Translations under genes and position numbers: made by a program
DNA from: Achromobacter xylosoxidans
Lineage (GTDB): Bacteria; Pseudomonadota; Gammaproteobacteria; Burkholderiales; Burkholderiaceae_B
Length of the DNA stretch: 64,000 nucleotides
Assembly (NCBI RefSeq): GCF_001457475.1
Contig: NZ_LN831029.1
Location: 3,224,001 to 3,288,000 of the forward strand
Direction: 5' to 3'
Notes under the pieces: generated by a model
What the model was told of the DNA's origin: nothing
Seen by the model: the letters and a program-made list of their open reading frames with translations, nothing else
The model's database searches: none
Part shown: positions 9,322 through 43,834 of the stretch, piece by piece
How positions within the stretch are numbered: position 1 is the stretch's first letter
Layout: every line of letters starts with the position of its first letter

Positions 9322-10209
9322 CTACGACGGCGACATCAACCCCAACCCGCCCACGATGACCAGCACCGCGGCGCCCAGCAGCATTTCGCAGATCGTATTG
9401 CGCCGGATGGCATGCAGGGCCAGGGCCGGCTCGGCCCGGATGCGCGCGATCCAGCGATAGCGATTGGCCAGCGCCAGCCCGGTCATCGCCAGCGCCAGCG
9501 CGATCTTGAGCAACAGCACGCGCACATAGTCCCACCCCGCATCCGGCAATGCCGGCCCCAGGATCAGCGCCGCATTGGCCACGCCGCTGAGCAGCAAGAC
9601 CGCCACGGCGACATGCCCCCAGGCGGAAAAGCGCAGCAGCGCGCGGGCGGCCTCGGCGCGATCCCGCGGACGTTGCCAGGCCGCCAGCCATGACAGGAAC
9701 ACCGGCAGCGATCCCAGCCAGAACGCGGCCGCCAACAGGTGCAGATAGTCGCTGGCCGTGTGCGCCAGGCCCCAGCCGCCTTCGTGCATCGCGGCGTGGC
9801 CGCTGAATGCCAGCGGCGCCAATGCCACGGCCGCCGGCCCCGCCAGCCAAGATGGCCGGCCCGGCCGCAGCCCCAGCGCCACGCCCAGCACGGCGGCCGC
9901 GCACAGGGCGCGCGCCACCCAGGCCTGGCCGTAGCCGGTCTGCAGGGTGACCGTGTCCAGCATCTCGCCGTCCAGCATCGCCCGCCAGTCGCCGGCGATG
10001 CTGGCGGCCTGCAACGGCAACAGGCACAGTGTGGCCACCAGTCCCGCCGCGCCGATGCGCAGCAGGGCCGGCCGCAGCGCGGTCTCGGCGGCCACCCCCA
10101 GGCGCGGCGAGCCGCCCAGCGCCAGCATCGCGCTGGCGCCGAACAGCACCGCCGCCGCGCCGGCGCTGACGGCCCGGCACAGCGCGAACACGACCCACAA
10201 GGCGTCCAT
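9322..10209 (-). CDS. copD: Copper resistance protein CopD-like inner-membrane protein
   Basis: The 295-aa protein has about eight hydrophobic helices and the CopD/PcoD layout, with histidines in transmembrane segments (AFSGHAAMHEGG and HTASDYLHLLAAAFWLGSLP). CopD works with periplasmic CopC in copper handling, probably moving copper over the inner membrane. The start chosen (MDALWVV) lies 1 nt from the copC stop, as in other copC-copD pairs; an upstream in-frame ATG would overlap copC. Copper specificity is inferred from family and context. Confidence 0.87.
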   Translation of the reverse strand: MDALWVVFALCRAVSAGAAAVLFGASAMLALGGSPRLGVAAETALRPALLRIGAAGLVATLCLLPLQAASIAGDWRAMLDGEMLDTVTLQTGYGQAWVARALCAAAVLGVALGLRPGRPSWLAGPAAVALAPLAFSGHAAMHEGGWGLAHTASDYLHLLAAAFWLGSLPVFLSWLAAWQRPRDRAEAARALLRFSAWGHVAVAVLLLSGVANAALILGPALPDAGWDYVRVLLLKIALALAMTGLALANRYRWIARIRAEPALALHAIRRNTICEMLLGAAVLVIVGGLGLMSPS

Positions 10210-10210
10210 T

Positions 10211-10567
10211 TCAGGGCTTGACCGTGAACGTCCAGGCACCGTTGGTTTTGTGGCCGTCCTTGGACAAGGCCTGCCATTTCACGGTGTAGGCGCCCGCCGG
10301 CAAGGGTGTGGCCACGGGCAACACCAGCGTCTTGTCATCACCCGGCGCCGGCGCGGCCTTGGCCGCGACGGCCTGCTTGCCGGCCGTGTCCAGCACGGTC
10401 AGCGACGAAAAGGCGGGCTCCAACCCTTCGGAGAAAGTGGCCGTCACCGAAGACGGCGCGGCCACCTCGGCCTTGTCGGCCGGCGTGGCGCGTTGCAGGT
10501 GGGCGTGGGCCCAGGCCCATTGCGGGGCGAGCACGAGCGTGGCGGCGATGAATGCGGGTTTGAACAT
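10211..10567 (-). CDS. copC: Periplasmic copper-binding protein CopC/YobA
   Basis: The 118-aa precursor has a signal peptide ending at WAWA-HAH near residue 20, so the mature protein starts with the histidine that binds Cu(II) in CopC proteins. The rest fits the cupredoxin-like CopC fold (VTATFSEGLEPAFSSL, PLPAGAYTVKWQALSKDGHKTNGAWTFTV), including the conserved aspartate-histidine pair SKDGH. There is no methionine-rich Cu(I) site, so it is the Cu(II)-only type. It is transcribed together with copD, 1 nt downstream. Confidence 0.92.
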   Translation of the reverse strand: MFKPAFIAATLVLAPQWAWAHAHLQRATPADKAEVAAPSSVTATFSEGLEPAFSSLTVLDTAGKQAVAAKAAPAPGDDKTLVLPVATPLPAGAYTVKWQALSKDGHKTNGAWTFTVKP

Positions 10568-18644: not shown

Positions 18645-20015
18645 TCAGGAGCGAGCCGTGGTGCCAAGGTCGACGCGGAACACGCTGCCCCGCCCCGGCG
18701 CCGATTGCAGCGAGACCCGCCAACCCTGGTGTTCGCAGATGCGTTGCACCAGGGACAGGCCCAGCCCGAGGTTGCCGGCGGCAGGCTGCGTGCCGCGCAC
18801 AAAGGGGCTGAAGACCGCCTGCTGCCGCTCCGCCGGAATGCCCGGACCGTCGTCGGCCACCTGCAGGTATTGGGCGCCGGCGCTGATCGTGACGCGCGCG
18901 CCGGGTCCGGCGTATTGCAGCGAATTGCGGATCAGGTTGGACAGCAACGCGCGCAGCAACGGCGCCGGAAAGCGCGGCGGGTCCATTGCCGGCGTCATCC
19001 CGTCGGCGCCGCTCGGGCCCGGGGCGGCGCCCCTGTCGAAGACATCGGCGGGCGCGCCGGCCGCCGCGTTCGACGGGCTCGGCCCCGCCGCGGCCTGCAG
19101 CGTCAGCGACATGCCGCGCCGCCGCGCCACCGCGCTCCAGGCCGCGAGTTGCTCGCGCGCGGCCTCATCGGCGCTGGCGCGCGCGAACTGGCCCGCGTCG
19201 TCGCGCCCGCGCGCCAGCATCAGGTAGGTATCGAGCCGTTCCCCCATGTCGGCCGCGGCCGCCGCGATGCGCCGCAAGCACGCATTGCCGTCGGCATCCA
19301 GTCCCGGCTCTTCCAACAGCAGTTCGCAGGAACTGGAAATCACCATCAGCGGCGTGCGCAATTCGTGGCCAACGTCGGCGGTGAACAGCTGTTCGCGCCG
19401 CAGCGCCTGCTCGAGCTGGTTGTAGGTGGCGTCGAAGGCGGCCGCCAACCGGCCGATCTCGTCAGGGGGGTAGTCCTCGGCCAGGCGGGTCTGCGGCGGC
19501 TGCGCGCCGCGCGCCGTGACCTGCGCCGCCAGCCTGGCCAAGGGCCGCAGCATGCGCCGCGTGGCCAGGGTGCCCAGCACGAAGGCCAGCGCCAGCCCGC
19601 CGGCCAGGCCGCTGACCACGGTCCAGTGCGACGCGGACTGGTTGTGTTCGTACTCGGTGTAGTCGCGCAGCAGCATGTAGCGCTGGCCGTCCTTGTCGTC
19701 CACCATGACGTGCCAGATTCGGCCCTCGCGCTCGATCTTGTGGAAGCCCGGCGCCAGGCCCCGCAGCCATTGCGGGAACGCCGATCCGCCCGGTTCGCCA
19801 TGGAAGAACCGATGCGGCCGGCCCGGGTCGATGCCCGCCAGGAAGTCGCCGCGCACCCGTTCCACCGCCATGCCCATGTCGATGCGCTGCAAGTGGACTT
19901 CGAGCGTGTTCACGCTCCAGATCGACACCCAGGTCAGCACGCCGCCGACCAGCAGCGCCAGCAACAGGTAGGTGCGCACCAGGTAGCGCGCCAGGCCGCG
20001 CCGCGCGCTACGCAT
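18645..20015 (-). CDS. Two-component sensor histidine kinase
   Basis: The 456-aa kinase has a first membrane helix (YLLLALLVGGVLTWVSIW), a periplasmic sensor part of about 110 residues, a second helix (VSGLAGGLALAFVLGTLA), a HAMP linker, a dimerisation domain with the phospho-acceptor histidine in FTADVGHELRTPL, and an ATPase domain with NLIRNSLQYAG, DDGPGIP and GLGLSL. The start was chosen because it gives the usual 8-nt overlap with the response regulator stop and a positively charged cytoplasmic N terminus. The stretch between the dimerisation and ATPase domains contains a Pro/Gly/Ala-rich insertion. The signal is unknown; divergence from a metal ABC operon with azurin suggests a metal. 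Confidence 0.9.
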   Translation of the reverse strand: MRSARRGLARYLVRTYLLLALLVGGVLTWVSIWSVNTLEVHLQRIDMGMAVERVRGDFLAGIDPGRPHRFFHGEPGGSAFPQWLRGLAPGFHKIEREGRIWHVMVDDKDGQRYMLLRDYTEYEHNQSASHWTVVSGLAGGLALAFVLGTLATRRMLRPLARLAAQVTARGAQPPQTRLAEDYPPDEIGRLAAAFDATYNQLEQALRREQLFTADVGHELRTPLMVISSSCELLLEEPGLDADGNACLRRIAAAAADMGERLDTYLMLARGRDDAGQFARASADEAAREQLAAWSAVARRRGMSLTLQAAAGPSPSNAAAGAPADVFDRGAAPGPSGADGMTPAMDPPRFPAPLLRALLSNLIRNSLQYAGPGARVTISAGAQYLQVADDGPGIPAERQQAVFSPFVRGTQPAAGNLGLGLSLVQRICEHQGWRVSLQSAPGRGSVFRVDLGTTARS

Positions 20016-20691
20016 CGCCGGCCGCCCGCAATTGGTAGCCGATGCCGTGCACCGTGTGCAGCAGCGGCGCGTCGAACGGCTTGTCGACCACCTGGCGGAT
20101 CTGGTGGATATGGGTGCGCAGGCTGTCGCTATCGGGCGGGGAATCGCGCCACAGGGCCTCTTCGAGCCGGCCACGATGGACCACCACGGGGCTGGCGCGC
20201 ATCAACAGCATCAACAGCTGCAGTGGCGACGGCGGCAGGCGCAGCGCCTGCCCGGCGCGCGCCAGCGCCAGGGTGCCGGTATCCAGCGTCAGGTCGCCCA
20301 CCCGCAACACGCGCGCCGCGCCGGCGCCGCTGGCGCGGTGCAGCAGCGCCTTGACGCGCGCCGCCAGTTCGGCCAGCGCGAAGGGCTTGACCAGGTAGTC
20401 GTCGGCGCCCGCGTCGAAGCCGGCCAAGCGGTTGTCGAGCGTGTCGCGCGCGGTGACCATGATGATCGGCGTTCCGCAGCCGGCTTCGGCGCGCAGTTGG
20501 CGGCACAGGTCGTAGCCGTCCAGCCGCGGCAGCATCAGGTCGAGCACGATCAGGTCGAAGCCGCCTTCAGCGGCCATCGCATAGCCGCGCAGCCCGTCCT
20601 CCGCGCAATCGACGATATAGCCGCGGCGCGTCAGGTGATGCGTGATGTTGGCCAGGATATCGGGATCGTCTTCGATGACAAGAACGCGCAT
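20008..20691 (-). CDS. OmpR-family response regulator
   Basis: The 227-aa protein has a receiver domain (acidic pocket EDDPD, phospho-acceptor Asp in DLIVLDLMLPRLDGYD, conserved lysine in DYLVKPFAL) and a C-terminal winged helix (RVGDLTLDTGTLALARAG, LLMRASPVVVHRGRLEEALW, DSLRTHIHQIRQVVDKPF). It precedes and overlaps its kinase gene by 8 nt. The 193-nt gap to the divergent FecB-like gene is the obvious target region. The CusR/QseB/PmrA branch is plausible, but the subgroup was not determined. Confidence 0.92.
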   Translation of the reverse strand: MRVLVIEDDPDILANITHHLTRRGYIVDCAEDGLRGYAMAAEGGFDLIVLDLMLPRLDGYDLCRQLRAEAGCGTPIIMVTARDTLDNRLAGFDAGADDYLVKPFALAELAARVKALLHRASGAGAARVLRVGDLTLDTGTLALARAGQALRLPPSPLQLLMLLMRASPVVVHRGRLEEALWRDSPPDSDSLRTHIHQIRQVVDKPFDAPLLHTVHGIGYQLRAAGDA

Positions 20692-20884
20692 GTCGGATCG
20701 GGCGGGAATGGAAATCAATCTCAGATTGTAAGCGCGGCCGGCGCCCGGCAGCGGCCGCGGCCACGGGCCGCCGCGTCTTAACGAAATCTTGAACCTCGAT
20801 GGCGGAGACTGTCCGCCGATGTGAATGGTTCGCGTTACCCGCAAGCCCGCGGGCGCGTCCAGGGTCACTGGATCGGGATTCTCC

Positions 20885-22006
20885 ATGCGTTTGAAATTCG
20901 TGTTCCGCGCGGCGCTGGCTGGCGCCGCCCTGCTCTGCGCCGTCGCCGGCGCCCAGGCCCGCCAGGTGACCGACCTGGCCGGGCGCGTCGTGACCGTGCC
21001 CGACCATCCGCGACGGGTGCTGCTGGGCGAAGGCCGCTTCGTCTTCGCCATGGCCTTGCTGGACCGCGCCGATCCGGTGGCCCGCGTGGTCGGCTGGCAG
21101 GGCGAACTCAAGCAGCAGGACCCCTACTCCTGGCAACAGCTGGTCAAGCGCTTCCCGAAGGCTGCCCAGGTGCCGCTGATCGGCACCACCTCGGAAGCCA
21201 GCGTCAGTCCCGAAAAAATCGTCGCGCTCAGGCCCGACGTGGCGGTATTCAGCCTGAGCGGCCACGGCCCGGGCCGCAACAATCCCATGATCGCGTCGTT
21301 GCAGCAGGCCGGCATTCCCATCGTCTTCATCGACTTCCGCCAGCATCCGGTGCAAAACACCGTTCCCAGCCTGCGCCTCCTGGGCCAGGCGCTCGACCGC
21401 CAGGACCAGGCCGAGCGCTACATTGCATTCTATGAATCGCACATGGCCAAGGTGCGCGACCTGGTGCAACCCGTGCCGCAGGCCGAGCGGCCGCGCGTGT
21501 TCGTGGAAATGCTGGCCGGCGTCTGGCCGGCGTGCTGCCACACCACCGGCAACGGCAGCTTCGGCGACCTGCTGCAGGCCGCCGGCGGCGTGAACGTGGC
21601 GGCGCCGGTGCTGCCGGGCGCGATCGGCGACGTCAGCATGGAATTCCTGCTGCAGTCACAGCCGCGGGTCTACATCGCCACCGGCAGCCGCTCCGAACCC
21701 GGCCGCCCGGGCCTGCTGGTCGGACCGGGCGCCGCCGCCGATGTCTCCGCCGCCAGCCTGCACGCCTTGCTGCAACGCGACGGCATCCGCGACCTGGAGG
21801 CGGTCAAGCGCGGCCGCGCCTTCGGCATCTGGCACGCGTTCTACAACTCGCCCTACAACGTGGCGGCGGTGGAAGCCATGGCCAAGTGGCTGTATCCGGA
21901 ACGCGCCGCCGCGCTCGATCCGCGCGCCACGCTCGACACGCTGTACCGCGACTTCCTCGACCTGGACGGCGCCGGCACCTACTGGACCGCGCCCGCCGCC
22001 CGTTGA
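20885..22006 (+). CDS. FecB-type ABC substrate-binding protein (metal or metallophore)
   Basis: The 373-aa exported protein starts with a Sec signal peptide (cleavage near GAQA-RQVTD) and has no lipobox. The mature part begins RQVTDLAGRVVTVPDHPRRVLL and continues with ALRPDVAVFSL and GIPIVFIDFRQHP, the usual layout of Fe-siderophore, heme and cobalamin binding proteins. CCHTTGNGSFGDLLQAAGG near residue 218 carries two adjacent cysteines and a histidine. The first ATG of the frame (20825) would add 20 non-signal residues and was rejected. It heads an operon with permease, azurin and ATPase. Confidence 0.87.
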   Translation: MRLKFVFRAALAGAALLCAVAGAQARQVTDLAGRVVTVPDHPRRVLLGEGRFVFAMALLDRADPVARVVGWQGELKQQDPYSWQQLVKRFPKAAQVPLIGTTSEASVSPEKIVALRPDVAVFSLSGHGPGRNNPMIASLQQAGIPIVFIDFRQHPVQNTVPSLRLLGQALDRQDQAERYIAFYESHMAKVRDLVQPVPQAERPRVFVEMLAGVWPACCHTTGNGSFGDLLQAAGGVNVAAPVLPGAIGDVSMEFLLQSQPRVYIATGSRSEPGRPGLLVGPGAAADVSAASLHALLQRDGIRDLEAVKRGRAFGIWHAFYNSPYNVAAVEAMAKWLYPERAAALDPRATLDTLYRDFLDLDGAGTYWTAPAAR

Positions 22007-22018
22007 CCGGCTCTTCCC

Positions 22019-23095
22019 ATGCAGACCCCCGCCACCATCCTGGCCGCCGACGGCATGCCGGACGATCCCGTCGCCCACTATCGCCGCACCCGCAGGCGGC
22101 GCCTGCTGCTGGCGCTGGCGCTGGCCGTGCTCATCGTCGCCAGCCTGCTGGCCGACCTCGCCACCGGCCCGGCCGGCCTGGCGTCGGCCGATCTGCTGCG
22201 CACACTGCTGCATCCCGACGGCGCCGACGCCGGCACCCGCGTCATCGTCTGGCAGTTCCGCCTGCCCTACGCGCTGATGGCATTGCTGGTGGGCGTGGCG
22301 CTGGGGCTGGGCGGCGCCGAGATGCAGACCATGCTCGACAACCCGCTGGCCAGTCCCTACACGCTTGGCGTGTCGGCCGCCGCCGCGTTCGGCGCCTCGC
22401 TGGCGATCACGCTGGACTGGCACCTGCCGGCTTTGCCGCCGGGCATGGTGGTGTCGTTGTCCGCCTTCGCCAGCACGCTGGTGTCGGTGCTGGTGCTGGA
22501 ACGCGTGGCGCGCTGGCGCGGCGGGTCGACGCTGGGCGTGGTGCTGTTCGGCATTGCCCTGGTGTATGCCTTCCAGGCCCTGGTGATGCTGCTGCAATTC
22601 ATCGCCAGCGAGGAAGCGCTGCAAGGCATCGTCTTCTGGACCATGGGCAGCCTGGCGCGCGCCAACTGGACCAGCGTCGGCGCGATGGCCGTGGCGCTGG
22701 CCCTGGCGCTTCCCTATTCCCTGCGCGACGCCTGGAAGCTGACGGCGGTGCGGCTGGGCGAGGAACGCGCCGCCAGTTTCGGCATCGACGTCAAGCGCCT
22801 GCGGCTGGTGAGCCTGCTGCGCGTCAGCGCGCTGGCTGCCTTGGCGGTGTCGTTCGTCGGCACCATCGGTTTCGTCGGCCTGGTGGCGCCTCACATCGCC
22901 CGGCTGCTGCTGGGCGAGGACCATCGCCACTACCTGCCCGGCAGCGCGCTGGCCGGCGCGCTGATCCTGTCGCTGGCCTCCGTCGCCTCCAAGACCGTGC
23001 TGCCCGGCGCGCTGGTGCCGGTCGGCATCGTGACCTCGCTGGTCGGCATTCCCTTCTTTCTCACCATCGTCATCCGCGCCCTCAAGCGCAGCTGA
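22019..23095 (+). CDS. FecCD-family ABC permease
   Basis: The 358-aa inner-membrane protein has about nine or ten helices and the FecCD landmarks FRLPYALMALLVGVALGLGGAEMQTMLDNPLASPYTLGVSA and GTIGFVGLVAPHIARLLLGEDHR near the C terminus, the latter contacting the ATPase. One permease gene implies a homodimeric channel as in BtuC. It starts 12 nt after the binding-protein gene and is followed after 28 nt by the azurin gene. Confidence 0.92.
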   Translation: MQTPATILAADGMPDDPVAHYRRTRRRRLLLALALAVLIVASLLADLATGPAGLASADLLRTLLHPDGADAGTRVIVWQFRLPYALMALLVGVALGLGGAEMQTMLDNPLASPYTLGVSAAAAFGASLAITLDWHLPALPPGMVVSLSAFASTLVSVLVLERVARWRGGSTLGVVLFGIALVYAFQALVMLLQFIASEEALQGIVFWTMGSLARANWTSVGAMAVALALALPYSLRDAWKLTAVRLGEERAASFGIDVKRLRLVSLLRVSALAALAVSFVGTIGFVGLVAPHIARLLLGEDHRHYLPGSALAGALILSLASVASKTVLPGALVPVGIVTSLVGIPFFLTIVIRALKRS

Positions 23096-23123
23096 CTCCT
23101 ACCTTCACCGGAGACGCCTTCCC

Positions 23124-23582
23124 ATGCACACCCGCTACCCGTTCGCCCTCGCCGCCCTGCTGGCCGCCGGCGCCGTCCACGCCGCCGCGCCCGCCTGCAG
23201 CATCGACGTCGAAGGCCAGCCCGGCAAGAAGTTCGCGCCCGCCCACATCGTGGTGCCCGCCACCTGCCAGGACTTCACGGTGCGCCTGATCCATACCGGC
23301 AAGAACAGCAAGGAAAAGGCCGGCCACAACTGGGTGCTGACCCGGACCGAAGACATCGACGCGGTGATGGTCGACGGCATGAAGGCGGGCGCGGCGCATG
23401 ATTTCCTGGCCCCGGGCGATGGCCGCATCCTGGCCCGCACGCCGATGCTGGGCGGCGGCGAGACCGCCAGCGTCACCTTCCCCGTCAGCCGCCTGGCGGC
23501 CGGGCAGTCGTACACCTTCTATTGCTCGTTCCCGGCGCACGCCCAGCACATGCGCGGCACGCTGGCCCTGCAGCGGCCCTGA
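23124..23582 (+). CDS. azu: Azurin-type blue copper protein encoded inside a metal ABC operon
   Basis: The 152-aa precursor has a signal peptide (residues 1 to about 20-22). The mature part is a full azurin: Gly67 and His68 (AGHNWVL), Cys134, His139 and Met143 (YCSFPAHAQHM) are the type 1 copper ligands, and Cys25/Cys48 the disulfide. All these residues differ from standard azurin numbering (45, 46, 112, 117, 121, 3, 26) by exactly 22, so no insertion or deletion disturbs the site. Azurins carry electrons in the periplasm and some take part in copper uptake. GGAGA lies before the ATG, and only 4 nt separate its stop from the ATPase gene, so it is co-transcribed with the importer. Confidence 0.95.
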   Translation: MHTRYPFALAALLAAGAVHAAAPACSIDVEGQPGKKFAPAHIVVPATCQDFTVRLIHTGKNSKEKAGHNWVLTRTEDIDAVMVDGMKAGAAHDFLAPGDGRILARTPMLGGGETASVTFPVSRLAAGQSYTFYCSFPAHAQHMRGTLALQRP

Positions 23583-23586
23583 CGCC

Positions 23587-24414
23587 ATGGCCTCGCGGCA
23601 GAGCCCCGACACCCCGGCCGCGCTGGAGATCCGCGCGCTCGATGCCGGCTATGGCGCGCGCCCGGTGCTGCGGGGCCTGCGGGCGGGCCCGCTGCGCGAA
23701 GGCACGCTGACCGCGCTATTGGGTCCGAACGGCAGCGGCAAATCGACGCTGCTCAAGACCCTGGCCGGCCTGAACCCCATGCAGGCCGGCGAACTGCGGC
23801 TGGACGGCGCCGATTTCGGCCGGCTGCCGCCGGCGCGGCGCGCGCAACATGCCATGTACATGCCGCAGGCCCTGCCCAGGGGCGTGCACATGACGGTGCT
23901 GGAATCGGTGCTGGTGGCGGCCCGCTCCGGCCGCGCGCGCCAGCCCGGCGACGTGCTCATGGGCGAGGCCATGCGGGTGCTGTCCGAACTGGGCATCAAC
24001 GCCCTCGCCAGCCGTTGCCTGGACGAGCTGTCCGGCGGCCAGAAGCAGTTGGCCTCGCTGGCCCAGGCCCTGGTGCGGCGGCCGCGCCTGCTATTGCTGG
24101 ACGAGCCGCTGTCGGCGCTGGACCTGAATTACCAGTTCCACGTCATGGACGTGCTGCGCCGGCAGACCGCAAGCCATCGCCTCATCACGCTGGTGGTGCT
24201 GCACGACCTGAACATCGCCCTGCGCCACGCCGACCATGCCCTGCTGCTGCACGGCGGCGCGCTGCTGGCCGAAGGCCCGCCGCGCGAGGTGGTCACGCGC
24301 GATACGCTGCGCCGCGCCTATGGCGTGCTGGCCCGGGTCGAACGGTGTCCGCAGGGCCAACCGCAAGTGCATGTGGACGGATTGGCCCATATCGGATTGG
24401 CCCATATCGCCTAG
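23587..24414 (+). CDS. FecE-type ABC transporter ATPase
   Basis: The 275-aa nucleotide-binding subunit has Walker A GPNGSGKST, Q-loop YMPQALPRG, signature LSGGQKQL, Walker B LLLLDEPLSALD and switch histidine VVLHDLNIALRHAD, typical of the Fe-siderophore/cobalamin group. It completes the importer started at 20885. The last residues include GLAHIGLAHIA, encoded by a perfect 15-bp tandem duplication. Its TAG stop overlaps the stop of the convergent ilvA gene in the palindrome CTAG. Confidence 0.92.
   Translation: MASRQSPDTPAALEIRALDAGYGARPVLRGLRAGPLREGTLTALLGPNGSGKSTLLKTLAGLNPMQAGELRLDGADFGRLPPARRAQHAMYMPQALPRGVHMTVLESVLVAARSGRARQPGDVLMGEAMRVLSELGINALASRCLDELSGGQKQLASLAQALVRRPRLLLLDEPLSALDLNYQFHVMDVLRRQTASHRLITLVVLHDLNIALRHADHALLLHGGALLAEGPPREVVTRDTLRRAYGVLARVERCPQGQPQVHVDGLAHIGLAHIA
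24379..24408. repeat. Perfect 15-bp tandem duplication at the 3' end of the ATPase gene
   Basis: The 15-bp unit GGATTGGCCCATATC occurs twice without interruption (24379-24393, 24394-24408), coding for Gly-Leu-Ala-His-Ile twice in frame. It ends three bases before the shared stop region. Confidence 0.9.
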
Positions 24415-25988
24415 ATCAGGAACTGCCGGTAGGCCTCGTTCGCCGTCTCTTCCGAATGGGCGTAGCCCAGCTGCGCCAGGAAGCGGTCGAGCGCCGCGTC
24501 GTCGGCCACCGGCGCCTGGATGCCCACCAGCACCGAACTGAAGTCGGCGCCCTGGTTGCGGTAGTGGAACAGGCTGATGTTCCAGTTCGGCGCCATGGCG
24601 GTCAGGAACTTCATCAGCGCGCCCGGACGTTCCGGAAATTCGAAGCGGAACAGGCGTTCGCCGCCCGCCAGCGGCGAACGCCCGCCGACCATGTAGCGGA
24701 TGTGCTGCTTGGATACCTCGTTGTGCGTCAGGTCGCTGACCGCGAAGCCCTGCTCCTGCAAGCCGCGCATGATGTCCGCGCCCTCGCCGCGCCGCGCGAT
24801 CTGCACGCTGACGAAGATGCGGGCGGTGCGGGCGTCGGCGATGCGGTAGTTGAATTCGGTCACGCTGCGCTGGCCCATCACCGCGCAGAAGCGGCGGAAG
24901 CTGCCGCGCTCCTCGGGCAAGGTGACGGCGAACACCGCCTCGCGCGCCTCGCCCACCTCGGCGCGGTCGGCAACGAAGCGCATGCGATCGAAGTTCATGT
25001 TGGCGCCCGAGGTGATCGCCACCAGCGACTGGCCACTCACGCCCTCGCGCTCCACGTATTGCTTGAGTCCGGCCAGCGCCAGCGCGCCCGCCGGCTCCAG
25101 CACGCTGCGCGTGTCCAGGAAAACGTCCTTGATCGCCGCGCAGACCGCGTCGGTGTCCACCAGGATCACTTCGTCGAGGAACTGGCGGCACAGGCGGAAG
25201 GTCTCTTCGCCCACCAGCTTGACCGCGGTGCCATCCGAGAACAGCCCCACCTCGGCCAGGCTGACGCGCTCGCCCACCTGGATCGACTGCGCCATGGCGC
25301 TGGAATCGACCGTCTGCACCCCGATCACCTTGACGGACGGATCCACCGCCTTCATGTACACCGACACGCCCGCCGCCAGGCTGCCGCCGCCGATCGGCAC
25401 GAACACCGCGTCCAGCCGCCCCGGATGCTGGCGCAGGATCTCCATGCCGACCGTGCCCTGCCCGGCGATCACGTAGGGGTCGTCGAACGCCGGAATGAAA
25501 GTCAGATCCTGATCGCGCGCCAGCGTCTGCGCGTAGGCGTAGGCATCGCTGTAGGAGTCGCCCGCCAGCACCACCTGCACCGTCGGCCCGCCGAAGGCGC
25601 GCACCGCGTCTACCTTCACCTGCGGCGCGGTCTGCGGCACCACGATGGTGGCGCGCACGCCGAGCCGGGCGGCGGAGATCGCCACGCCCTGGGCGTGGTT
25701 GCCGGCCGACGCGGTGATCACGCCGCGCTCCAGCGCCGCCTGCGGCGTGTTGCGCATCTTGTTGTAGGCGCCGCGCACCTTGAACGAGAACACCGGCTGG
25801 TTGTCCTCGCGCTTGAGATGCACGCGGTTGCCCAGCCGGCGCGACAGGCCGTGGGCCGGGTCCAGTTCGGTTTCGCGGGCGATGTCGTAGACGCGCGCGG
25901 TCAGGATCTGGCGCAGGTATTCCATGGGCGCGGCGCGGCCCGCGGTGAATGCATCGGTGTCGGTGGGGGTGGCTTGCGGTTGTTGCAT
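24411..25988 (-). CDS. ilvA: Biosynthetic threonine dehydratase
   Basis: The 525-aa PLP enzyme deaminates threonine to 2-oxobutyrate, the first step of isoleucine synthesis. The catalytic domain has the Schiff-base lysine in FSFKVRGAYNKM, the SAGNHAQGVA phosphate-region motif and the PIGGGSLAAGVS glycine loop. The C-terminal 170 residues form two ACT-like regulatory domains (GSFRRFCAVMG, ERPGALMKFLTAM) that bind isoleucine and valine, so this is the feedback-regulated biosynthetic form of normal length. A leader peptide and terminator lie upstream (26036-26151). Its stop shares CTAG with the convergent ATPase gene. Confidence 0.96.
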   Translation of the reverse strand: MQQPQATPTDTDAFTAGRAAPMEYLRQILTARVYDIARETELDPAHGLSRRLGNRVHLKREDNQPVFSFKVRGAYNKMRNTPQAALERGVITASAGNHAQGVAISAARLGVRATIVVPQTAPQVKVDAVRAFGGPTVQVVLAGDSYSDAYAYAQTLARDQDLTFIPAFDDPYVIAGQGTVGMEILRQHPGRLDAVFVPIGGGSLAAGVSVYMKAVDPSVKVIGVQTVDSSAMAQSIQVGERVSLAEVGLFSDGTAVKLVGEETFRLCRQFLDEVILVDTDAVCAAIKDVFLDTRSVLEPAGALALAGLKQYVEREGVSGQSLVAITSGANMNFDRMRFVADRAEVGEAREAVFAVTLPEERGSFRRFCAVMGQRSVTEFNYRIADARTARIFVSVQIARRGEGADIMRGLQEQGFAVSDLTHNEVSKQHIRYMVGGRSPLAGGERLFRFEFPERPGALMKFLTAMAPNWNISLFHYRNQGADFSSVLVGIQAPVADDAALDRFLAQLGYAHSEETANEAYRQFLI

Positions 25989-33124: not shown

Positions 33125-34522
33125 ATGAACCGTGAAATCTATGACTTCGTCGCGATCGGCCTAGGCCCTTTCAACCTCAGCCTGGCCTGCCTGTCGGCGC
33201 CCTTGCCCGGCGTGCGCGCCCTGTTCCTCGACAAGAAACCCGGCTTCGACTGGCATCCGGGCATGCTGATCGAGGCCTCCACGCTGCAGAACCCGTTCCT
33301 GGCGGACCTGGTCAGCCTGGCCGATCCGCGCAGCGAATACAGCTACCTGAACTACTGCAAGCAGACCGGCCGCATCTACTCGTACTACATGCGCGAGAAC
33401 CACTACCTGACGCGCGCTGAGTACAACCGCTATTGCAAATGGGTGGCCGCGCGCCTGCCGAACCTGCGCTTCAACAGCGACGTGCAGAGCGTGCTGCATG
33501 ACCCCGAGACCGACACCTACCTGGTCACCGGCCAGCACAGCGTCAATGGCGAACGCTTCATGGTCCGCTGCCGCAAGCTGGTGCTGGGCCTGGGGTCGCA
33601 GCCGGTGCTGCCGCCCTGCTGCGACCGGCGCGAAGCGCCCTACATCCACAGCGCCGACTATCTGCGGCACAAGGAACAGCTGCAACGACGGACGTCGATC
33701 ACCATCGTGGGTAGCGGCCAGAGCGCGGCCGAGGTGTTCCACGACCTGCTGCGCGACAGCGACGAACACGACTACAGCCTGGCCTGGATCACCCGTTCGC
33801 CGCGCTTTTTCCAGATGGAGAACACCAAGCTCACGCTGGAACTGATTTCCCCCGACTACACCAATTATTTCTACGACCTGCCCGAGGCTCGCCGCCGCCA
33901 GATCCTGGCCGAGCAGAGCAGCCTGTACAAGGGCATCAACGCGTCGCTGATCAACCAGATCTACGACCTGCTCGATGAAAGGATCCACAACGGCGACAAC
34001 CGCTACACGCTGCTGACCAATGCCGAATTGCGCGGCAGCCGCCATGACCGCGGCACCGGCCGCTACCAGCTGGAATTCCGCCACGTCGATACCGGCCAGC
34101 CGTTCTCGCATTCGACCGATGGCCTGGTGCTGGCCACCGGCTATGCGCGCAGCATCCCCAGCTGCGTCAATCCCATCCACGACCGCATCGCCTGGGCCGA
34201 CGATGGCGGCTACCGCATCGCGCGCAACTACACCATCGACCATGGCGGCAACGAGATCTTCGTGCAGAACAGCGGCCTGCTCAGCCATGGCGTCACCAAT
34301 CCGGACCTGGGCTTCTGCTGCTACCGCAACTCGCAGATCCTGCGCGAACTGACCGGCCACGAGCATTACGCCATCGAACCGCGCACCGCCTTGCAGGATT
34401 TCCGTCCGCCGGCCGGCGGCGTGCTGGCGCATCGCGCGGCGCAAGCGGCGCCGGCGTGCCGCGGCGGCGTGGCGCCGGAACTGATGCCCCTGCTGGACGG
34501 CCATCGCGCCGCCACGGTCTGA
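33125..34522 (+). CDS. alcA: Alcaligin biosynthesis monooxygenase (diamine N-hydroxylase)
   Basis: The 465-aa FAD/NADPH enzyme belongs to the IucD/PvdA N-hydroxylating family. It shows the FAD motif FVAIGLGPFNLSLA, the substrate region PGMLIEASTLQNPFLADLVS, the NADPH motif ITIVGSGQSAAEVFHDL, and ATGYARSIPS near the C terminus. AlcA of Bordetella N-hydroxylates putrescine as the first step to the hydroxamate siderophore alcaligin. It is the first gene of the alc operon, preceded by the Fur and AlcR site candidates. The last 30 residues are Ala/Arg-rich and not conserved in the family. Confidence 0.96.
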   Translation: MNREIYDFVAIGLGPFNLSLACLSAPLPGVRALFLDKKPGFDWHPGMLIEASTLQNPFLADLVSLADPRSEYSYLNYCKQTGRIYSYYMRENHYLTRAEYNRYCKWVAARLPNLRFNSDVQSVLHDPETDTYLVTGQHSVNGERFMVRCRKLVLGLGSQPVLPPCCDRREAPYIHSADYLRHKEQLQRRTSITIVGSGQSAAEVFHDLLRDSDEHDYSLAWITRSPRFFQMENTKLTLELISPDYTNYFYDLPEARRRQILAEQSSLYKGINASLINQIYDLLDERIHNGDNRYTLLTNAELRGSRHDRGTGRYQLEFRHVDTGQPFSHSTDGLVLATGYARSIPSCVNPIHDRIAWADDGGYRIARNYTIDHGGNEIFVQNSGLLSHGVTNPDLGFCCYRNSQILRELTGHEHYAIEPRTALQDFRPPAGGVLAHRAAQAAPACRGGVAPELMPLLDGHRAATV

Positions 34523-34539
34523 TACCCCGGGAGCCCGCC

Positions 34540-35145
34540 ATGATCACCATGACCGCCGCCTTCCTGGGCGAGATCGACCGCCAGGCGCGCAGCCACTATG
34601 ACGAGGGCGCGGGCCTGGCGCTGCGGCCGCTCGATCCCGCCGCCGATGCCGCGCTGCTGCGCCAGTGGTTCGCGATGGACTACGCCCGTTTCTGGTCGAT
34701 GCAGACCTTCACCGAAGCGCAGGTGCGCGAGTTCTACGAAGCGCTGACCGACAGCGGCCACGCCGGCGCCTGGCTCGGCAGCCACGACGGCCGCCCCGCT
34801 TTCCTGGTCGAGTGCTACGACCCCGCCCACGACCAGGTCGGCGAGCACTACCCGGTGCGCCCCGGCGACCTCGGCATGCACATCTTCATCGGCCCGCCGC
34901 GCGTGCGCATCCCGAATTTCAGCCGCAACGTGCTGGCCTTCGTGATGCGCTTCATGTTCGACCGCCTCCAGGCCCGGCGCGTGGTGGTGGAACCCGACAG
35001 CAACAACAGCAAGATCCATGCGCTCAACCTGGCCATGGGTTTTGTCTACGCCGGCCAGGCGCGTTTTCGCGAGAAGACCGCCAGCATCGCCTTCTGCACC
35101 CGGCAGCAATTTGAACAGGCCCAACTCCAGGAGTCTTCCCTATGA
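34540..35145 (+). CDS. alcB: Alcaligin biosynthesis N-acyltransferase (IucB-type GNAT)
   Basis: The 201-aa acyltransferase transfers a succinyl group from CoA to the N-hydroxylated diamine. It has the IucB/siderophore GNAT pattern: LAL-RPLDPAADAALLRQWF, RPAFLVECYDPAHD-VGEHY, GDLGMHIFIGPP, RRVVVEPDSNNSKIHALNLAMGF. GGGAG precedes the ATG; a second ATG three codons on is possible. The stop overlaps the alcC start by 4 nt. Confidence 0.93.
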   Translation: MITMTAAFLGEIDRQARSHYDEGAGLALRPLDPAADAALLRQWFAMDYARFWSMQTFTEAQVREFYEALTDSGHAGAWLGSHDGRPAFLVECYDPAHDQVGEHYPVRPGDLGMHIFIGPPRVRIPNFSRNVLAFVMRFMFDRLQARRVVVEPDSNNSKIHALNLAMGFVYAGQARFREKTASIAFCTRQQFEQAQLQESSL

Positions 35146-36989
35146 GCACCCAGCCCCATCCCGCCCAGATCGCCAGCCACCTCGCTCCCGAGGTCTGGGA
35201 CAAAGTGAACCGCCTGCTGGTGAAGAAGGCCATCTCGGAATATGCCCACGAATGGCTGCTGGAGCCCGAACGGCTCGGCCCCGCCGAGGCGCCCGGCTTT
35301 GACCGCTACCGCCTGGTGCTGGCCGACGGCCATGCCGAATACCAGTTCGACGCGCAGCTGATGGCCATGCGCCACTGGCGCATCCCGGCCGAGTCCATCA
35401 GCAAGACCATGGCCGGCACGCCCGCGCCGCTGGACGCGCTGCAGTTCGTCATCGAGATCCGCGACAAGCTCGGCATGCCCGAGGACCGCCTGCCGATCTA
35501 CCTGGACGAGATCACCAGCACGCTGCACGGCAGCGCCTACAAGCACACCCGCGCCGCGCCCGCGGCCGCCGAATTGGCGCTGGCCGATTACCAGACCATC
35601 GAGACCTCGATGATCGAGGGCCACCCCAGCTTCGTGGCCAACAACGGCCGCCTGGGCTTCGACGCCGAAGACTACCACGTCTACGCCCCGGAGTGCGCCA
35701 GCCCGATCCGCGTGATGTGGCTCGCGGTGCACAAGGACAACGCCCACTTCGCCTGCCTGTCGACCATGGACTACGACAGCCTGCTGCGCGACGAACTGGG
35801 CGCCGACACCGTCGCCCGCCACACGCAGACGCTGCGCGATCAGGGCCTGGACCCGGCCGACTACTTCCTCATGCCGTCGCACCCGTGGCAGTGGTTCAAC
35901 AAATTGTCGCTGGCGTTCGCGCCCTACGTGGCCTCGCGCAAGATCGTGTGCCTGGGCTACGGCGACGATGACTACCTGGCGCAGCAGTCGATCCGCACCT
36001 TCTACAACATCAGCCAGCCGGGCAAGCACTACGTGAAGACCTCGCTGTCGATCCTGAACATGGGCTTCATGCGCGGACTGTCGCCTTACTACATGTCCGG
36101 CACGCCGGCGATCAACGAGTACATCCACGGCCTGATCAACGCCGATCCGTGGCTGCGGGAGAACGGCTTCACCATCTTGCGCGAAGCGGCCTCGCTGGGG
36201 TTCCGCAACTACTACTACGAAGCGGCCATCTCGGTCGACACGCCCTACAAGAAGATGTTCTCGGCGCTGTGGCGCGAGAACCCCACCGCGCTGATCGGCG
36301 CCAACCAGCGCCTGATGACCATGGCCGCGCTGCTGCACGTCGATCCGCAGGGCCGCGCGCTGCTGCCGGAACTGATCCGCGCCTCGGGGCTGGATGCCGC
36401 CGCATGGCTGGAGCGCTACGTCGACGCCTACCTTACGCCGCTGGTGCATTGCTTCTATGCCCACGACCTGGTGTTCATGCCGCACGGCGAGAACGTCATC
36501 CTGGTGGTCCAGGACCACGTGCCGGTGCGCGCCTTCATGAAGGACATCGCCGAGGAATCGTCGATCCTCAACCCGAACGCCGCCCTGCCCGAGAACGCCC
36601 GCCGCCTGGCCGCCGACGTGCCCGAGGAATACAAGCTGCTGACCATCTTCGTGGACGTGTTCGAAGGCTACTTCCGCCATCTGTCCCAGGTGCTGGTCGA
36701 CAACGGCGTGATGGACGAGGACGCCTTCTGGGAACTGGTGGCCGGCCGCATCATCGCCTATCAGGAAGCCCATCCCGAACGCCTGGAGAAGTACCGCCAG
36801 TACGACCTGTTCGCGCCGGAGATGATCCATTCGTGCCTGAACCGCCTGCAGCTGGCCAACAACCTGCAGATGGTCAACCTGGCCGACCCCATCGGCAGCT
36901 TCCAGATGGCGCCCAACCTGGCCAACCCGATTGCCCGCCACCGGCCCCAGTGGCTGGGCCAGGCCGACACCGCGCAGGCGCTTGCGTGA
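35142..36989 (+). CDS. alcC: Alcaligin synthetase (IucA/IucC-family NIS synthetase)
   Basis: The 615-aa enzyme is an NRPS-independent siderophore synthetase that joins and cyclises two hydroxamate units into alcaligin using ATP. It has the IucA/IucC core EGHPSFVANNGRLGFD (nucleotide binding, with HP-S), PSHPWQWFNKL, and the C-terminal FhuF-like/IucC domain with LVHCFYAHDLVFMPHGENVIL. The length is normal for the type C synthetases. It overlaps both neighbours by 4 nt, so the operon is translationally coupled. Confidence 0.97.
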   Translation: MSTQPHPAQIASHLAPEVWDKVNRLLVKKAISEYAHEWLLEPERLGPAEAPGFDRYRLVLADGHAEYQFDAQLMAMRHWRIPAESISKTMAGTPAPLDALQFVIEIRDKLGMPEDRLPIYLDEITSTLHGSAYKHTRAAPAAAELALADYQTIETSMIEGHPSFVANNGRLGFDAEDYHVYAPECASPIRVMWLAVHKDNAHFACLSTMDYDSLLRDELGADTVARHTQTLRDQGLDPADYFLMPSHPWQWFNKLSLAFAPYVASRKIVCLGYGDDDYLAQQSIRTFYNISQPGKHYVKTSLSILNMGFMRGLSPYYMSGTPAINEYIHGLINADPWLRENGFTILREAASLGFRNYYYEAAISVDTPYKKMFSALWRENPTALIGANQRLMTMAALLHVDPQGRALLPELIRASGLDAAAWLERYVDAYLTPLVHCFYAHDLVFMPHGENVILVVQDHVPVRAFMKDIAEESSILNPNAALPENARRLAADVPEEYKLLTIFVDVFEGYFRHLSQVLVDNGVMDEDAFWELVAGRIIAYQEAHPERLEKYRQYDLFAPEMIHSCLNRLQLANNLQMVNLADPIGSFQMAPNLANPIARHRPQWLGQADTAQALA

Positions 36990-37735
36990 ACCGCGACCTG
37001 GACGATCTGCTGGCGCTGACCGGCCGCCTGGTGCCCGGGCTGTCGGGCCAGGTCGCGGCGGCGCCCGGGCCGGGCATCCGCCCGGGCGCCGACAACGCCC
37101 AGGCCATCGCGCGGCTGCGCGATGTCTGGGGGCAGCGCTATCCGGAGGCCGGGCCACACTACCTGGCTTTGCGCTGCTGGGGGTTGCTGATCTGGCAGCC
37201 CGTCTACCTGAGCGTGATCGCCGCGCATCGCAGCGCGATCGTGCCCGACCTGTCGGGCATGATCCAGCCGGTGCCGGACGACGGTTTCATCATCGGCTAC
37301 ACCCTGGAGCGCCATGAACCCTTGCGCGGCGGCCTGCGCCACCGCATGCAGGCCGCCGCCGCACAACTGCGCAATATCTGCGCCACCTTCTACCGCGAAC
37401 TGACCCAGGCGCTGCGGGTGAGTCCGCGCGCCGCCGAGAGCATGCAGGCCGATTGCGTGCTGTATGCCCTGCTGGCCGCGCGTCACGACGACGGCGCCGC
37501 CGCCAACGACTGGGCCCAGCGGCAGGCCATCGAATGGATGGACCTGCTCGGCCTGCGCGGGCGCAGCGGCTACCTGACCTGGCGGCGCGCGGACCTGCCG
37601 GTCATCGCCGTCGATCGGCAGGTCTGCTGCCACTACTTCCGCAGGCGCGACGGCGACTACTGCAGCACCTGCCCCAAATTGGATCTTGCCGAACGCATGA
37701 CCCGGATCGACGCCGAGAGCGCCGTGCCCGCCTGA
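36986..37735 (+). CDS. alcD: AlcD, FhuF-like 2Fe-2S ferric siderophore reductase (inferred role)
   Basis: The 249-aa protein starts with GTG inside the alcC stop (GTGA). Its C terminus carries CC-HYFRRRDGDY-C-ST-C (Cys about 214, 215, 226, 229), exactly the C-C-x10-C-x2-C cluster motif of FhuF-type reductases, which release iron from hydroxamate siderophores in the cytoplasm. The N-terminal 200 residues include GLLIWQPVYLSVIAAH, as in FhuF-like proteins. AlcD is often listed without a function. The sequence argues that it reduces ferric alcaligin after import. Confidence 0.88.
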   Translation: MNRDLDDLLALTGRLVPGLSGQVAAAPGPGIRPGADNAQAIARLRDVWGQRYPEAGPHYLALRCWGLLIWQPVYLSVIAAHRSAIVPDLSGMIQPVPDDGFIIGYTLERHEPLRGGLRHRMQAAAAQLRNICATFYRELTQALRVSPRAAESMQADCVLYALLAARHDDGAAANDWAQRQAIEWMDLLGLRGRSGYLTWRRADLPVIAVDRQVCCHYFRRRDGDYCSTCPKLDLAERMTRIDAESAVPA

Positions 37736-37774
37736 AGGCGGCCGGGCCTTGCGAGACGGCACAAGGAGTCGGAA

Positions 37775-38941
37775 ATGACGGACATTGGCCGCCTCGAGCA
37801 CGTGCGCGAGGCCTTGAGCCCGCTGCACGTTCGGGCCTATTTCGACCAAGCCCTGTTCGCCCGCGAACAGGAACGGATATTCAAGCAATCGCCCATCTAC
37901 GTGGGCCACGAGAAAGTCGTGCCCGAACCAGGCGACTGGCGCCGCCTGCCGCACGAGGACGGCGGCCGGGTGCTGGTGCGCACCGCCCATGGCGTCGAGC
38001 TCGTCTCCAACGTCTGCCGCCACCGGCAGGCGCTGATCCTGGGCGGCGAGACGGGCGCGGTGACCGGACCCGGCAACCCCGCCGGCAACCTGTCGGCCAG
38101 CGGCGGCAACATCGTCTGCCCGCTGCACCGCTGGACCTACGACAACCGCGGCCAGATCCTGGGCGCGCCGCAGTTCCCCAGCACGCCCTGCCTGAACCTG
38201 CCGCGTTTTCCGCTGAAGAATTGCCATGGCCTGCTGTTCGAGGGCCCGCGCGATCCGCGCGCCGACCTGGGCCATCTGTTCGAGCGGCCCGAGTTCGACT
38301 TCTCCGACTACGTGCTCGACCACGTCGAGGTGCACCAATGCAACTACAACTGGAAGACCTTCATCGAAGTCTATCTGGAGGACTACCACGTGGGGCCCTT
38401 CCACCCCGGCCTGGGCCGGTTCGTCACCTGCGAGGACCTGAGCTGGGAGTTCGGCCGCCACCACAGCCTGCAACGCGTGGGCGTGCATGACTCGCTGGAA
38501 AAGCCCGGTTCCGACGTCTACCGCGACTGGCACGACACGCTGATGCGCTATCGCGGCGGCTCGGCGCCCGACTTCGGCGCGATCTGGGTGACCTACTTCC
38601 CCACCCACATGATCGAGCTGTACCCGCACGTGCTGGTGCTCTCCACGCTCTACCCCAAGAGCCCGCAGGAAACCATCAACATCGCCGAGTTCTACTACCC
38701 CGAGGAAATCGCGCTGTTCGAGCGCGAATTCGTCGAGGCGCAGCGCGCGGCCTACATGGAAACCGCGGTCGAGGACGACGAGATCGGCGAGCGCATGGAC
38801 GCCGGCCGGCTGGCGCTGCTGCGCCGCGGCACCTCCGAAAGCGGCCCATACCAGTCGCCGATGGAGGATGGCATGCAGCATTTCCACGAGTGGTATCGCG
38901 ACATCATGGGCGAGGAACTGGGTGACTGCGCCGCGCCGTAG
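37775..38941 (+). CDS. alcE: AlcE, Rieske non-heme iron oxygenase
   Basis: The 388-aa protein has a Rieske 2Fe-2S domain (CRHRQALILGG and CPLHRWTYDNRG, the C-x-H and C-x2-H ligands) and a catalytic domain with EVYLEDYHVGPFHPGL, where the two histidines and nearby Asp/Glu bind mononuclear iron. This is the architecture of ring-hydroxylating oxygenase alpha subunits. In alcaligin assembly it is thought to hydroxylate the carbon backbone. AAGGAG lies 8 nt before the ATG. No dedicated reductase is in the cluster. Confidence 0.93.
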   Translation: MTDIGRLEHVREALSPLHVRAYFDQALFAREQERIFKQSPIYVGHEKVVPEPGDWRRLPHEDGGRVLVRTAHGVELVSNVCRHRQALILGGETGAVTGPGNPAGNLSASGGNIVCPLHRWTYDNRGQILGAPQFPSTPCLNLPRFPLKNCHGLLFEGPRDPRADLGHLFERPEFDFSDYVLDHVEVHQCNYNWKTFIEVYLEDYHVGPFHPGLGRFVTCEDLSWEFGRHHSLQRVGVHDSLEKPGSDVYRDWHDTLMRYRGGSAPDFGAIWVTYFPTHMIELYPHVLVLSTLYPKSPQETINIAEFYYPEEIALFEREFVEAQRAAYMETAVEDDEIGERMDAGRLALLRRGTSESGPYQSPMEDGMQHFHEWYRDIMGEELGDCAAP

Positions 38942-38988
38942 GGGGACGCAGGGGCCGGGCACGCCGTAATTAAAACGGTGCCGGAGCG

Positions 38989-39035
38989 GTGAGAATAGCT
39001 GCAACAATGCGAACATATGCTATTCTCATTCTCAC
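38989..39035. promoter_or_regulatory. Fur-like GAGAAT hexamers and dyad before alcR
   Basis: Inverted arms at 38989-38999 and 39019-39029 match at 10 of 11 positions. They contain GAGAAT hexamers, one on the plus strand and two adjacent ones on the minus strand (39022-39033). Repeated GAGAAT/GATAAT hexamers are what Fur recognises, so an iron-regulated internal promoter for alcR is likely. Confidence 0.55.
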
Positions 39036-39084
39036 ATTTGACGGTGTGCCGAACACCGCTACAGGGGCTCAACCCGTATCGCGA

Positions 39085-40059
39085 GTGACGATCTTGAACC
39101 CAGCACCCTCCCCCGCCCAATTCACCGTCGCCGACTTCAACCGCATGGGCAGCCAGAGCGGTTTCCGCTACCGCCTGCCGCAATTGAACGGCGCGTTGCG
39201 CGGCGACCCCGAGACCCTCTGCATTGCCGAAGGCCGCGTCGAGACCCACGCGATCCGACCGGGCCTGACCCTGGTGCTGTCCGACGTGCGCGTGCACCAG
39301 CATTACGAGGCCACCTCGATGATGTCGCCGCGCTTTTCCGCCATCGTCATGCTGCAGGGCCACGCCCAGACCCGCATCGATCGCCACGACGACGTCAGGC
39401 TGGCCGCGCACAGCGGCGTCAGCGCGCTTTACGGCGACACCGTCGCCATGACCGGCATCCACGCGCCGGGCCAACGCCTGCGCAGCATCAACCTGTCGCT
39501 GTCCGACCCCGACGGCGCCGGCGACGACCAGACCAGCGAGATGATCTGGAAGGCGCTGCGTTCGCCGTCGCTGCGGCTGCGCCGCTGGCAGGTCCAGGGC
39601 CATCTGCTGCAGGCCATCGAGCACCTGCTCGACTGCGGTTGGGACGGCCCGCTGCAGGCCATGCTGCGCGAAGGCGTGGGGACGCAGTTGCTGGCGCATG
39701 CGTTGGCGACACTGGAACAGCGCGCGCCGGCCGACAGCACGGTTTCGGAACGCGATCGCCAGTTGCTGGAACGGGTGCGCGAACGCCTGTACAGCGCGCC
39801 GGGCGAGGAACACACGCTGGACGAGCTGGCGCGGCTGGCCTGCATGAGCCCGAGCACGCTGCGCGCCAAATTCCAGGCGACCTACCAGCGCTCGGTCTTC
39901 AGCTGGCTGCGCGAACGGCGGCTGGAAGTGGCGCGCGAACAACTGGCCCAAGGGTGCAGCGTGCAACAGGCGGCGCATTTCGTCGGTTACCGCCACGCCA
40001 CCAACTTCGCCACGGCGTTCCGCGAGCGCTACGGCATCGCTCCCAGCGAACTGAACTGA
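39085..40059 (+). CDS. alcR: AlcR, AraC-family regulator of alcaligin genes
   Basis: The C-terminal 100 residues form an AraC DNA-binding domain (HTLDELARLACMSPSTLRAKFQATYQRSVFSWLRERRLEVAREQLAQG and VGYRHATNFATAFRERYGIAPSEL). The N-terminal part is a cupin-like inducer domain. In Bordetella AlcR activates alc and fauA transcription when alcaligin is present. The start is uncertain: the open frame runs back through the promoter dyad, so I chose the GTG at 39085 downstream of it (324 aa). TTG at 39094 and ATG at 39145 are alternatives. Confidence 0.9.
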   Translation: MTILNPAPSPAQFTVADFNRMGSQSGFRYRLPQLNGALRGDPETLCIAEGRVETHAIRPGLTLVLSDVRVHQHYEATSMMSPRFSAIVMLQGHAQTRIDRHDDVRLAAHSGVSALYGDTVAMTGIHAPGQRLRSINLSLSDPDGAGDDQTSEMIWKALRSPSLRLRRWQVQGHLLQAIEHLLDCGWDGPLQAMLREGVGTQLLAHALATLEQRAPADSTVSERDRQLLERVRERLYSAPGEEHTLDELARLACMSPSTLRAKFQATYQRSVFSWLRERRLEVAREQLAQGCSVQQAAHFVGYRHATNFATAFRERYGIAPSELN

Positions 40060-40177
40060 GCGCCGGCCGTGCACGGCTTACGGCGGCGCCCATTGCTCTT
40101 GCGGCGTTCACCATTCCTGCAACCCACGATGACAGGCGACCATGCGGTTGCGCTTCCCAGCCCGGGAGGCCCCCGCC

Positions 40178-41419: not shown

Positions 41420-41529
41420 CGTGCCACCCCATGGGTTTGGTGCGGGCACATGCGCGCGCCAGCGCAGCAGCCCGGCGGCGTTTTCCATATGCATTGCGTC
41501 GTCCGGCATACATCAGCTCAACGGTAAAA

Positions 41530-41548: not shown

Positions 41549-41574
41549 AAATTTTTCCGTTGGAGCTTGTCCTC

Positions 41575-43791: not shown

Positions 43792-43834
43792 AGATGGCAT
43801 CGCACGGCTGCAAGCCAAGGAGGACAGCGGCACA

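Follow-up and report, generated by a model that had tools for sequence, protein, structure and literature searches.

Azurin is among the best-studied electron carriers and is usually placed in respiration. Here we report an azurin gene that lies inside the operon of an ATP-binding cassette (ABC) importer in Achromobacter xylosoxidans (contig NZ_LN831029.1), within an analysed stretch of 64,000 nucleotides (positions 3,224,001 to 3,288,000) called the window below. We read this locus as a ferric-siderophore importer controlled by Fur and by a two-component system and equipped with a dedicated azurin, and give this best reading a probability of roughly 40%. The importer most resembles YiuABC, a Fur-regulated ABC transporter of Yersinia iron uptake, whose substrate-binding protein (SBP), YiuA, comes from a Fur-regulated locus and is thought to bind siderophores (PMC5683015, here and below in the part available to us). 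A basic triad of R64, R165 and R223 has been proposed for YiuA, with H331 and Y334 as auxiliary residues and a disulphide between its two cysteines; the protein lacks a direct metal-binding bundle, and the main text, in that part, makes no mention of azurin (PMC5683015). The nearest precedent for the azurin would be found in FtrABCD, the ferrous iron system of Bordetella, where the cupredoxin FtrB oxidises iron before translocation inside the importer (PMC5681537, in the excerpt available). The transporters differ, that of the window operon being, in our reading, an ABC siderophore importer.

A sequence-only reading of this DNA, made earlier by a model, had placed the azurin gene between permease and ATPase genes, 4 nt before the latter, in an importer operon divergent from a two-component system. 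Gene calls bear out both points, the second with Pfam and NCBIfam matches as well (Table 1). The kinase and regulator genes on the minus strand diverge from SBP, permease, azurin and ATPase on the plus strand, where the intergenic gaps are 12 nt (SBP to permease), 28 nt (permease to azurin) and 4 nt (azurin stop to ATPase ATG). These gaps leave the azurin gene little room for a promoter of its own, and a simple scan of 20600-24500, covering sigma-70-like promoters and simple terminators only, revealed neither for it. The label “FecBCD-type” used in that reading holds as far as an ABC importer operon is concerned and is otherwise loose, as there is only one FecCD permease gene; the transporter has the shape of BtuFCD or YiuABC, not of FecBCDE, and its permease presumably works as a homodimer, like BtuC. 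The ATPase has the heme, F420-0, FecE and FhuC ATPases as its top NCBIfam families, each under its cut-off.

The earlier reading had named a neighbourhood survey as a check, and this we ran. Scanning the SBP against one genome per species (84,980 species) gave 96 stretches, 20 relatives and 19 loci (L004-L022), which belong to 15 Achromobacter, three Bordetella genomospecies and one Herbaspirillum. The order SBP-permease-azurin-ATPase is kept in all 19 of these SBP-derived loci and is for that reason far from chance; gaps run from -4 to 55 nt, though the gene caller's choice of start codon affects several of the larger values. A divergent kinase/regulator pair accompanies 17 of the 19, directly upstream in 16 and with four genes intervening in L014; in L013 this region is lost at the contig end, and the only pair at L018 is weakly similar (35%) and lies downstream.

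Co-occurrence follows the same pattern. Of the 43 genus genomes compared, which include that of the window, 19 carry the operon-type azurin (79-100% identity), and the same 19 carry the SBP (at least 81%), 1.1-1.4 kb from the azurin and on one strand. An ordinary azurin is present in 42 of the 43, the exception being a genome that is 57% complete. Across 200 genomes of the family, some azurin occurs in 121, the operon type in 7 (at least 71%, near full length) and the SBP in 8 (at least 66%), of which 7 coincide with the operon-type azurin and the eighth is G100 (L030). Of 200 genomes in a second family, the operon type occurs in two (G430 and G597), which are also the two with a close SBP; here the order is SBP-permease-ATPase-azurin, some 80-130 nt separate ATPase and azurin, and the divergent kinase/regulator pair is weakly similar (26-34%). 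Eleven further genomes of that family have SBPs at 41-46% and no operon-type azurin. Searches at the level of the order (399 genomes, E 1e-38) and class (321 genomes, E 1e-36), with strict cut-offs that can miss distant members, added nothing beyond the two second-family genomes. One region (L071:6919-7258, genome G113) holds an azurin remnant of 74-76 aa beside a kinase remnant, with flanking genes shared with the intact Bordetella locus L021, and is probably a deletion scar.

As controls we took 18 further azurin loci from the family's azurin listing, of which 17 are ordinary and the eighteenth is the L071 remnant. None of the 17 has an SBP or permease match at 1e-6 within about 7 kb, and three show weak ATPase-only matches (30-35%). 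This count rests on tblastn, as the gene caller, trained on the window, detected hardly any genes or none in L041, L068 and L072; the neighbourhood comparison leaves out azurins of Pandoraea, Delftia and Comamonas (P0039-P0041, P0054, P0057). An azurin position unique to this strain, together with a separate promoter and terminator, had been put forward as grounds for dropping the idea; uniqueness is excluded by the 19 loci and the 19 of 43 genus genomes, and a separate promoter and terminator found no backing in the simple scan. A strain-specific insertion was accordingly discarded, given the conservation and co-occurrence across genomes. Such comparisons support the view that the importer operon includes azurin as a conserved member, and a functional tie between the two is likely.

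The azurin itself is intact, as first read: alignment to solved azurins confirms fold family, copper ligands and both disulphide cysteines, and the protein scores 149 bits on TIGR02695 (NCBIfam cut-off 105.1). The type-1 copper ligands G45, H46, C112, H117 and M121 and the cysteines C3 and C26 are kept in the window and in all 19 loci; among the database relatives, P0023 carries A45 instead. In the second sphere, N47, W48 and F114 are likewise conserved across the window protein and these 19, some database relatives having Tyr at 114. Fold, ligands and cysteines are shared with azurin I and azurin II (1rkr, 1dyz), which we take to be Achromobacter azurins. The operon azurin differs from azurins of this ordinary kind in the face around His117 (Pseudomonas numbering), where it carries M13K, L39N, N42E, V43K, M44A, G116A, L120H and K122R; other operon-type azurins vary, chiefly at positions 39, 42, 43, 116 and 120. 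Positions 13, 39, 43, 44, 116 and 120 presumably form the hydrophobic docking patch around His117, so that the patch of classical respiratory or denitrification azurins is missing here and is replaced throughout the operon-azurin clade, with the copper ligands retained. In an alignment of 69 database relatives and 24 other rows, position 13 among the database relatives is Lys in 62, Met in 6 and a gap in 1. A midpoint-drawn tree of 52 rows that we picked separates 35 operon-type from 17 ordinary azurins with support of 100/99. The window genome also holds two ordinary azurins, at 4.90 and 5.52 Mb, to both of which the operon azurin is 45-47% identical. By these sequence criteria the operon azurins form a distinct, specialised azurin subfamily.

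What the importer carries is suggested first by its SBP. The best PDB matches are 6b2x/6b2y (398 bits), the former presumably YiuA itself, and 9hrj/9hrp/9if3 (382 bits); for 9hrj and its relatives no relevant paper was found in the open-licence full-text literature. With its strong match and its aligned CC pair the window SBP is of the YiuA type, and most of the proposed binding residues are common to both: equivalents of R64, R165, H331 and Y334 are present. The basic triad is only two-thirds kept, R223 of YiuA being Leu in the window, in the 19 loci and in L030, an azurin-less locus discussed below. In the azurin-linked SBPs this Leu falls within an E(M/L)LAGVW..CCHT signature, and L054 and L055 have E(M/L)LAGVW..CC. 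A further difference from YiuABC is the divergent two-component system at the window locus.

Receptors of relatives point the same way. PirRS/PfeRS-type regulation accompanies the catecholate receptors Fiu/PiuA, and a Fiu-like receptor gene likewise stands near the kinase gene in 7 of the 15 Achromobacter loci (L005 and six at 82-96% identity to it; in L006 the two are two genes apart). The Herbaspirillum locus has a 61% relative at a different position. The receptors of L005, L010 and L018 all pass the TonB-siderophor model TIGR01783 and have Fiu (NF007349) as best NCBIfam family, although their 425.6-430.3 bits stay below its equivalog cut-off of 686, and the window locus, unlike those of Fiu/PiuA, holds no receptor gene. 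On the TonB-copper receptor model TIGR01778 the L005 and L010 receptors score 21.0 and 26.2 bits against a cut-off of 472.45; the CrtA family, which was not tested, is the copper TonB receptor of Bordetella (PMC12914433, in the part available). From these sequence features we consider it very probable that the importer carries siderophore-bound iron. The azurin may go with a particular siderophore class, judging from the FhuA-like receptor in the azurin-less L030:1716-9529.

Since copper is bound and reduced by catecholates, the azurin could be a scavenger or shield that strips or oxidises siderophore-borne copper, leaving the importer with the right metal and limiting damage by Cu(I). The intact copper ligands, the catecholate-type, Fiu-like receptor in some relatives and the hydroxamate-type receptor of azurin-less G100 would all suit such a role, but the conservation of N47, W48 and F114 is what a functioning electron-transfer site would show, and plain copper binding would need none of them. 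We regard this scavenging function as unlikely rather than far-fetched.

The divergent promoter is suggestive of Fur control, on the evidence of three hand-made Fur patterns. The regulator-side box ranks 3rd, 3rd and 2nd with them over the 64-kb window, and a similar sequence occurs in 13 of the 15 Achromobacter loci, not in L013 or L014. With one pattern only 2 of 331 tiles of 193 bp reach 14/18, the operon-side box and the fauA promoter; promoters of L054 and L055 also score 14/18 and that of L018 scores 13. In the promoter alignment a box is close to ATAAGAATGGTTCGCGTT in the Achromobacter rows and more variable elsewhere. Because a Fur-like box occupies 20818-20836, the SBP probably starts at 20885 instead of 20825. 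For the response regulator, a putative site is offered by a direct repeat whose first half is found in 20 of 21 aligned promoters and whose second half is altered in L019, L020 and L030; GTCTTAACG is found in 20 of the 21 and is absent from L018, and the window has no CTTAA-N6-CTT(A/G)A repeat outside the operon promoter. The response regulator is 73-95% identical among the Achromobacter and Bordetella loci that show one. The pair cannot be assigned to the metal-sensing CopRS/CusRS type (TIGR01386/TIGR01387): the sensor kinase has CztS/SilS/CopS as its top NCBIfam family at 109.6 bits against a cut-off of 292.55, and the response regulator scores 172.9 against 279.2 bits.

The Fur-like boxes before the operon would also suit iron sparing, in which a copper carrier replaces haem cytochromes c under iron starvation and shares nothing with the importer except regulation; the logic is classical from plastocyanin and cytochrome c6. 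However, the azurin docking patch serves cytochrome partners and is replaced across the operon-azurin clade, an ordinary azurin is already present in 42 of 43 genus genomes, and shared regulation needs no position between permease and ATPase. This explanation, too, we find improbable, if still worth serious consideration.

Copper acquisition, with azurin bringing copper, or a chelate of it, to the importer or presenting it there, was a role raised in the sequence-only reading. A type VI system of Pseudomonas aeruginosa has been linked to copper acquisition (PMC6907878, in the part available). Its secreted azurin, reportedly a stand-alone protein that works together with the copper receptor OprC, would be a further case of azurin in metal uptake, but neither promoter nor receptor type matches at the azurin-operon loci. 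The SBP relative YiuA is without a direct metal-binding bundle (PMC5683015), the L005 and L010 receptors are remote from the copper model, and the promoter elements are Fur-like. We rejected copper acquisition as the leading explanation on the promoter motifs (no copper-type promoter model was used), the SBP family and the linked receptors. Promoter elements, SBP family and the TonB receptor of some relatives point instead to iron-siderophore uptake, and a copper-acquiring azurin here is very unlikely.

In the ferric-siderophore reading that we prefer, the cargo would be an iron-siderophore complex, probably a catecholate and probably the product of another organism. In the periplasm the ferric complex would be bound by the YiuA-like SBP, and permease and ATPase would move it inward. 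Azurin, made from the same transcript (we infer a single transcription unit), would serve as a periplasmic one-electron acceptor that maintains the iron, or else the catechol ligand, in its oxidised form, the one recognised by the SBP, and would hand the electrons to the respiratory chain. Electron transfer is favoured because the type-1 copper site is kept, and a partner other than the usual cytochromes because the azurin face is altered; the oxidising job assigned to the protein is nonetheless tentative. The converse, in which azurin would give electrons to the ferric siderophore in the periplasm and free the iron before import, would fit an azurin gene that sits with SBP and permease, and periplasmic siderophore reduction occurs in other systems. 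It is nevertheless a very improbable course here: ferric siderophores have redox potentials far below that of azurin, and an ABC importer would ordinarily take in the entire complex. With a model azurin at about +310 mV (PMC12071310, in the part available), this difference makes the earlier idea that azurin reduces the metal unlikely on energetic grounds, and for the same reason we picture azurin accepting, not donating, electrons with ferric complexes. We would propose, with due hesitation, that the azurin subfamily is a dedicated redox partner evolved for an ABC siderophore importer, its polar copper edge turned towards the SBP, or towards the metal-catecholate itself, and acting at hand-over as a gate with an oxidising or metal-proofreading function.

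Several observations weigh against the preferred reading of a siderophore importer with a dedicated azurin. The sequence gives no sign of electron flow or of its direction, and net charge fails to separate operon from ordinary azurins. Two of the three hand-made Fur patterns rank the operon-side box just 8th and 10th. Eight of the 15 Achromobacter loci do not show the Fiu-like receptor, some of them (L013 included) having little or no sequence at that place, and the window genome has no close copy of it, the best match being 45%. The kinase/regulator pairs of L018, L054 and L055 are only 26-35% similar. Finally, G100 (locus L030) has SBP, permease, ATPase and two-component system and no azurin match; its permease stop overlaps its ATPase start, its linked receptor is FhuA-like and its SBP has the same Leu-type pocket. 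Because G100 keeps the importer without azurin, azurin is not indispensable to it. With the remaining gene order intact in G100, one might suppose that the azurin gene came to lie in the operon accidentally and is functionally unconnected with it. Such hitchhiking is hard to square with an azurin that is retained at each of the 19 loci, occurs in two families under different gene orders, coincides perfectly with the SBP across the 43 genus genomes and forms a clade of its own with an altered surface; its prospects are slim indeed.

To our knowledge, no cupredoxin has earlier been shown to serve siderophore uptake, and among the matches listed (titles and beginnings of abstracts) in the open-licence full-text literature, outside which most subscription journals lie, we found no description of azurin in a siderophore importer. 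If true, the siderophore-partner azurin would be the first cupredoxin known to us in such a role. An azurin subfamily travelling with a siderophore importer would join copper redox chemistry to siderophore-iron uptake and add a new periplasmic step to the latter, and genes annotated “azurin” would not all be interchangeable electron carriers. As the genus Achromobacter counts iron-competing opportunistic pathogens among its members, the system may matter for using siderophores of other organisms.

Table 1. Features of the azurin-importer locus, in window positions
Feature	Positions	Strand	Basis
Sensor histidine kinase (HAMP, HisKA, HATPase_c)	18645..20015	-	Pfam
OmpR-type response regulator	20008..20691	-	Pfam PF00072 + PF00486
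Fur-like box upstream of response regulator	20707..20725		13/18
Direct repeat CTTAAC-N5-CTTGA, putative response-regulator site	20777..20792	+	Promoter alignment
Fur-like box before operon	20818..20836	+	14/18, one hand-made pattern
Periplasmic SBP, YiuA-like	20885..22006	+	PF01497
FecCD/BtuC-type permease	22019..23095	+	PF01032, 269 bits
Azurin, operon subfamily (signal peptide judged by eye)	23124..23582	+	TIGR02695, PF00127
ABC ATPase	23587..24414	+	PF00005

The same window contains other genes of metal metabolism. An alcaligin-type siderophore cluster at 33125-47854, about 9 kb from the azurin operon, includes a FauA receptor (1330 bits, cut-off 900) and an ABC importer of its own; we take the alcaligin names for its biosynthetic genes. 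CopC and CopD genes, both over their NCBIfam cut-offs, lie at 9322-10567, 8-9 kb from the kinase gene.

Directly behind the ATPase in 11 Achromobacter loci (L012:10535-11467 and ten more) stands a gene for a protein of about 310 aa, probably exported, with an invariant DWNTGQRQ motif (L016 is a shorter call), and this protein might belong to the operon. No counterpart follows the ATPase in the window, L004, L005 or L017; the protein has no Pfam match in L007, L010 and L012 and no NCBIfam match in L010, and its structure model is poor (mean pLDDT 47.9). More distant SBP relatives (36-42%) occur in permease-ATPase-SBP operons of L033, L035 and L044, beside large genes that resemble the window gene at 55566-57062; the latter looks like an adenylate-forming ligase, and these operons are perhaps metallophore biosynthesis clusters. 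A small gene lies one gene from the kinase in L007 (323-706) and L008 (3497-3880); the L007 copy matches Pfam cytochrome c, and its product is conceivable as an electron partner.

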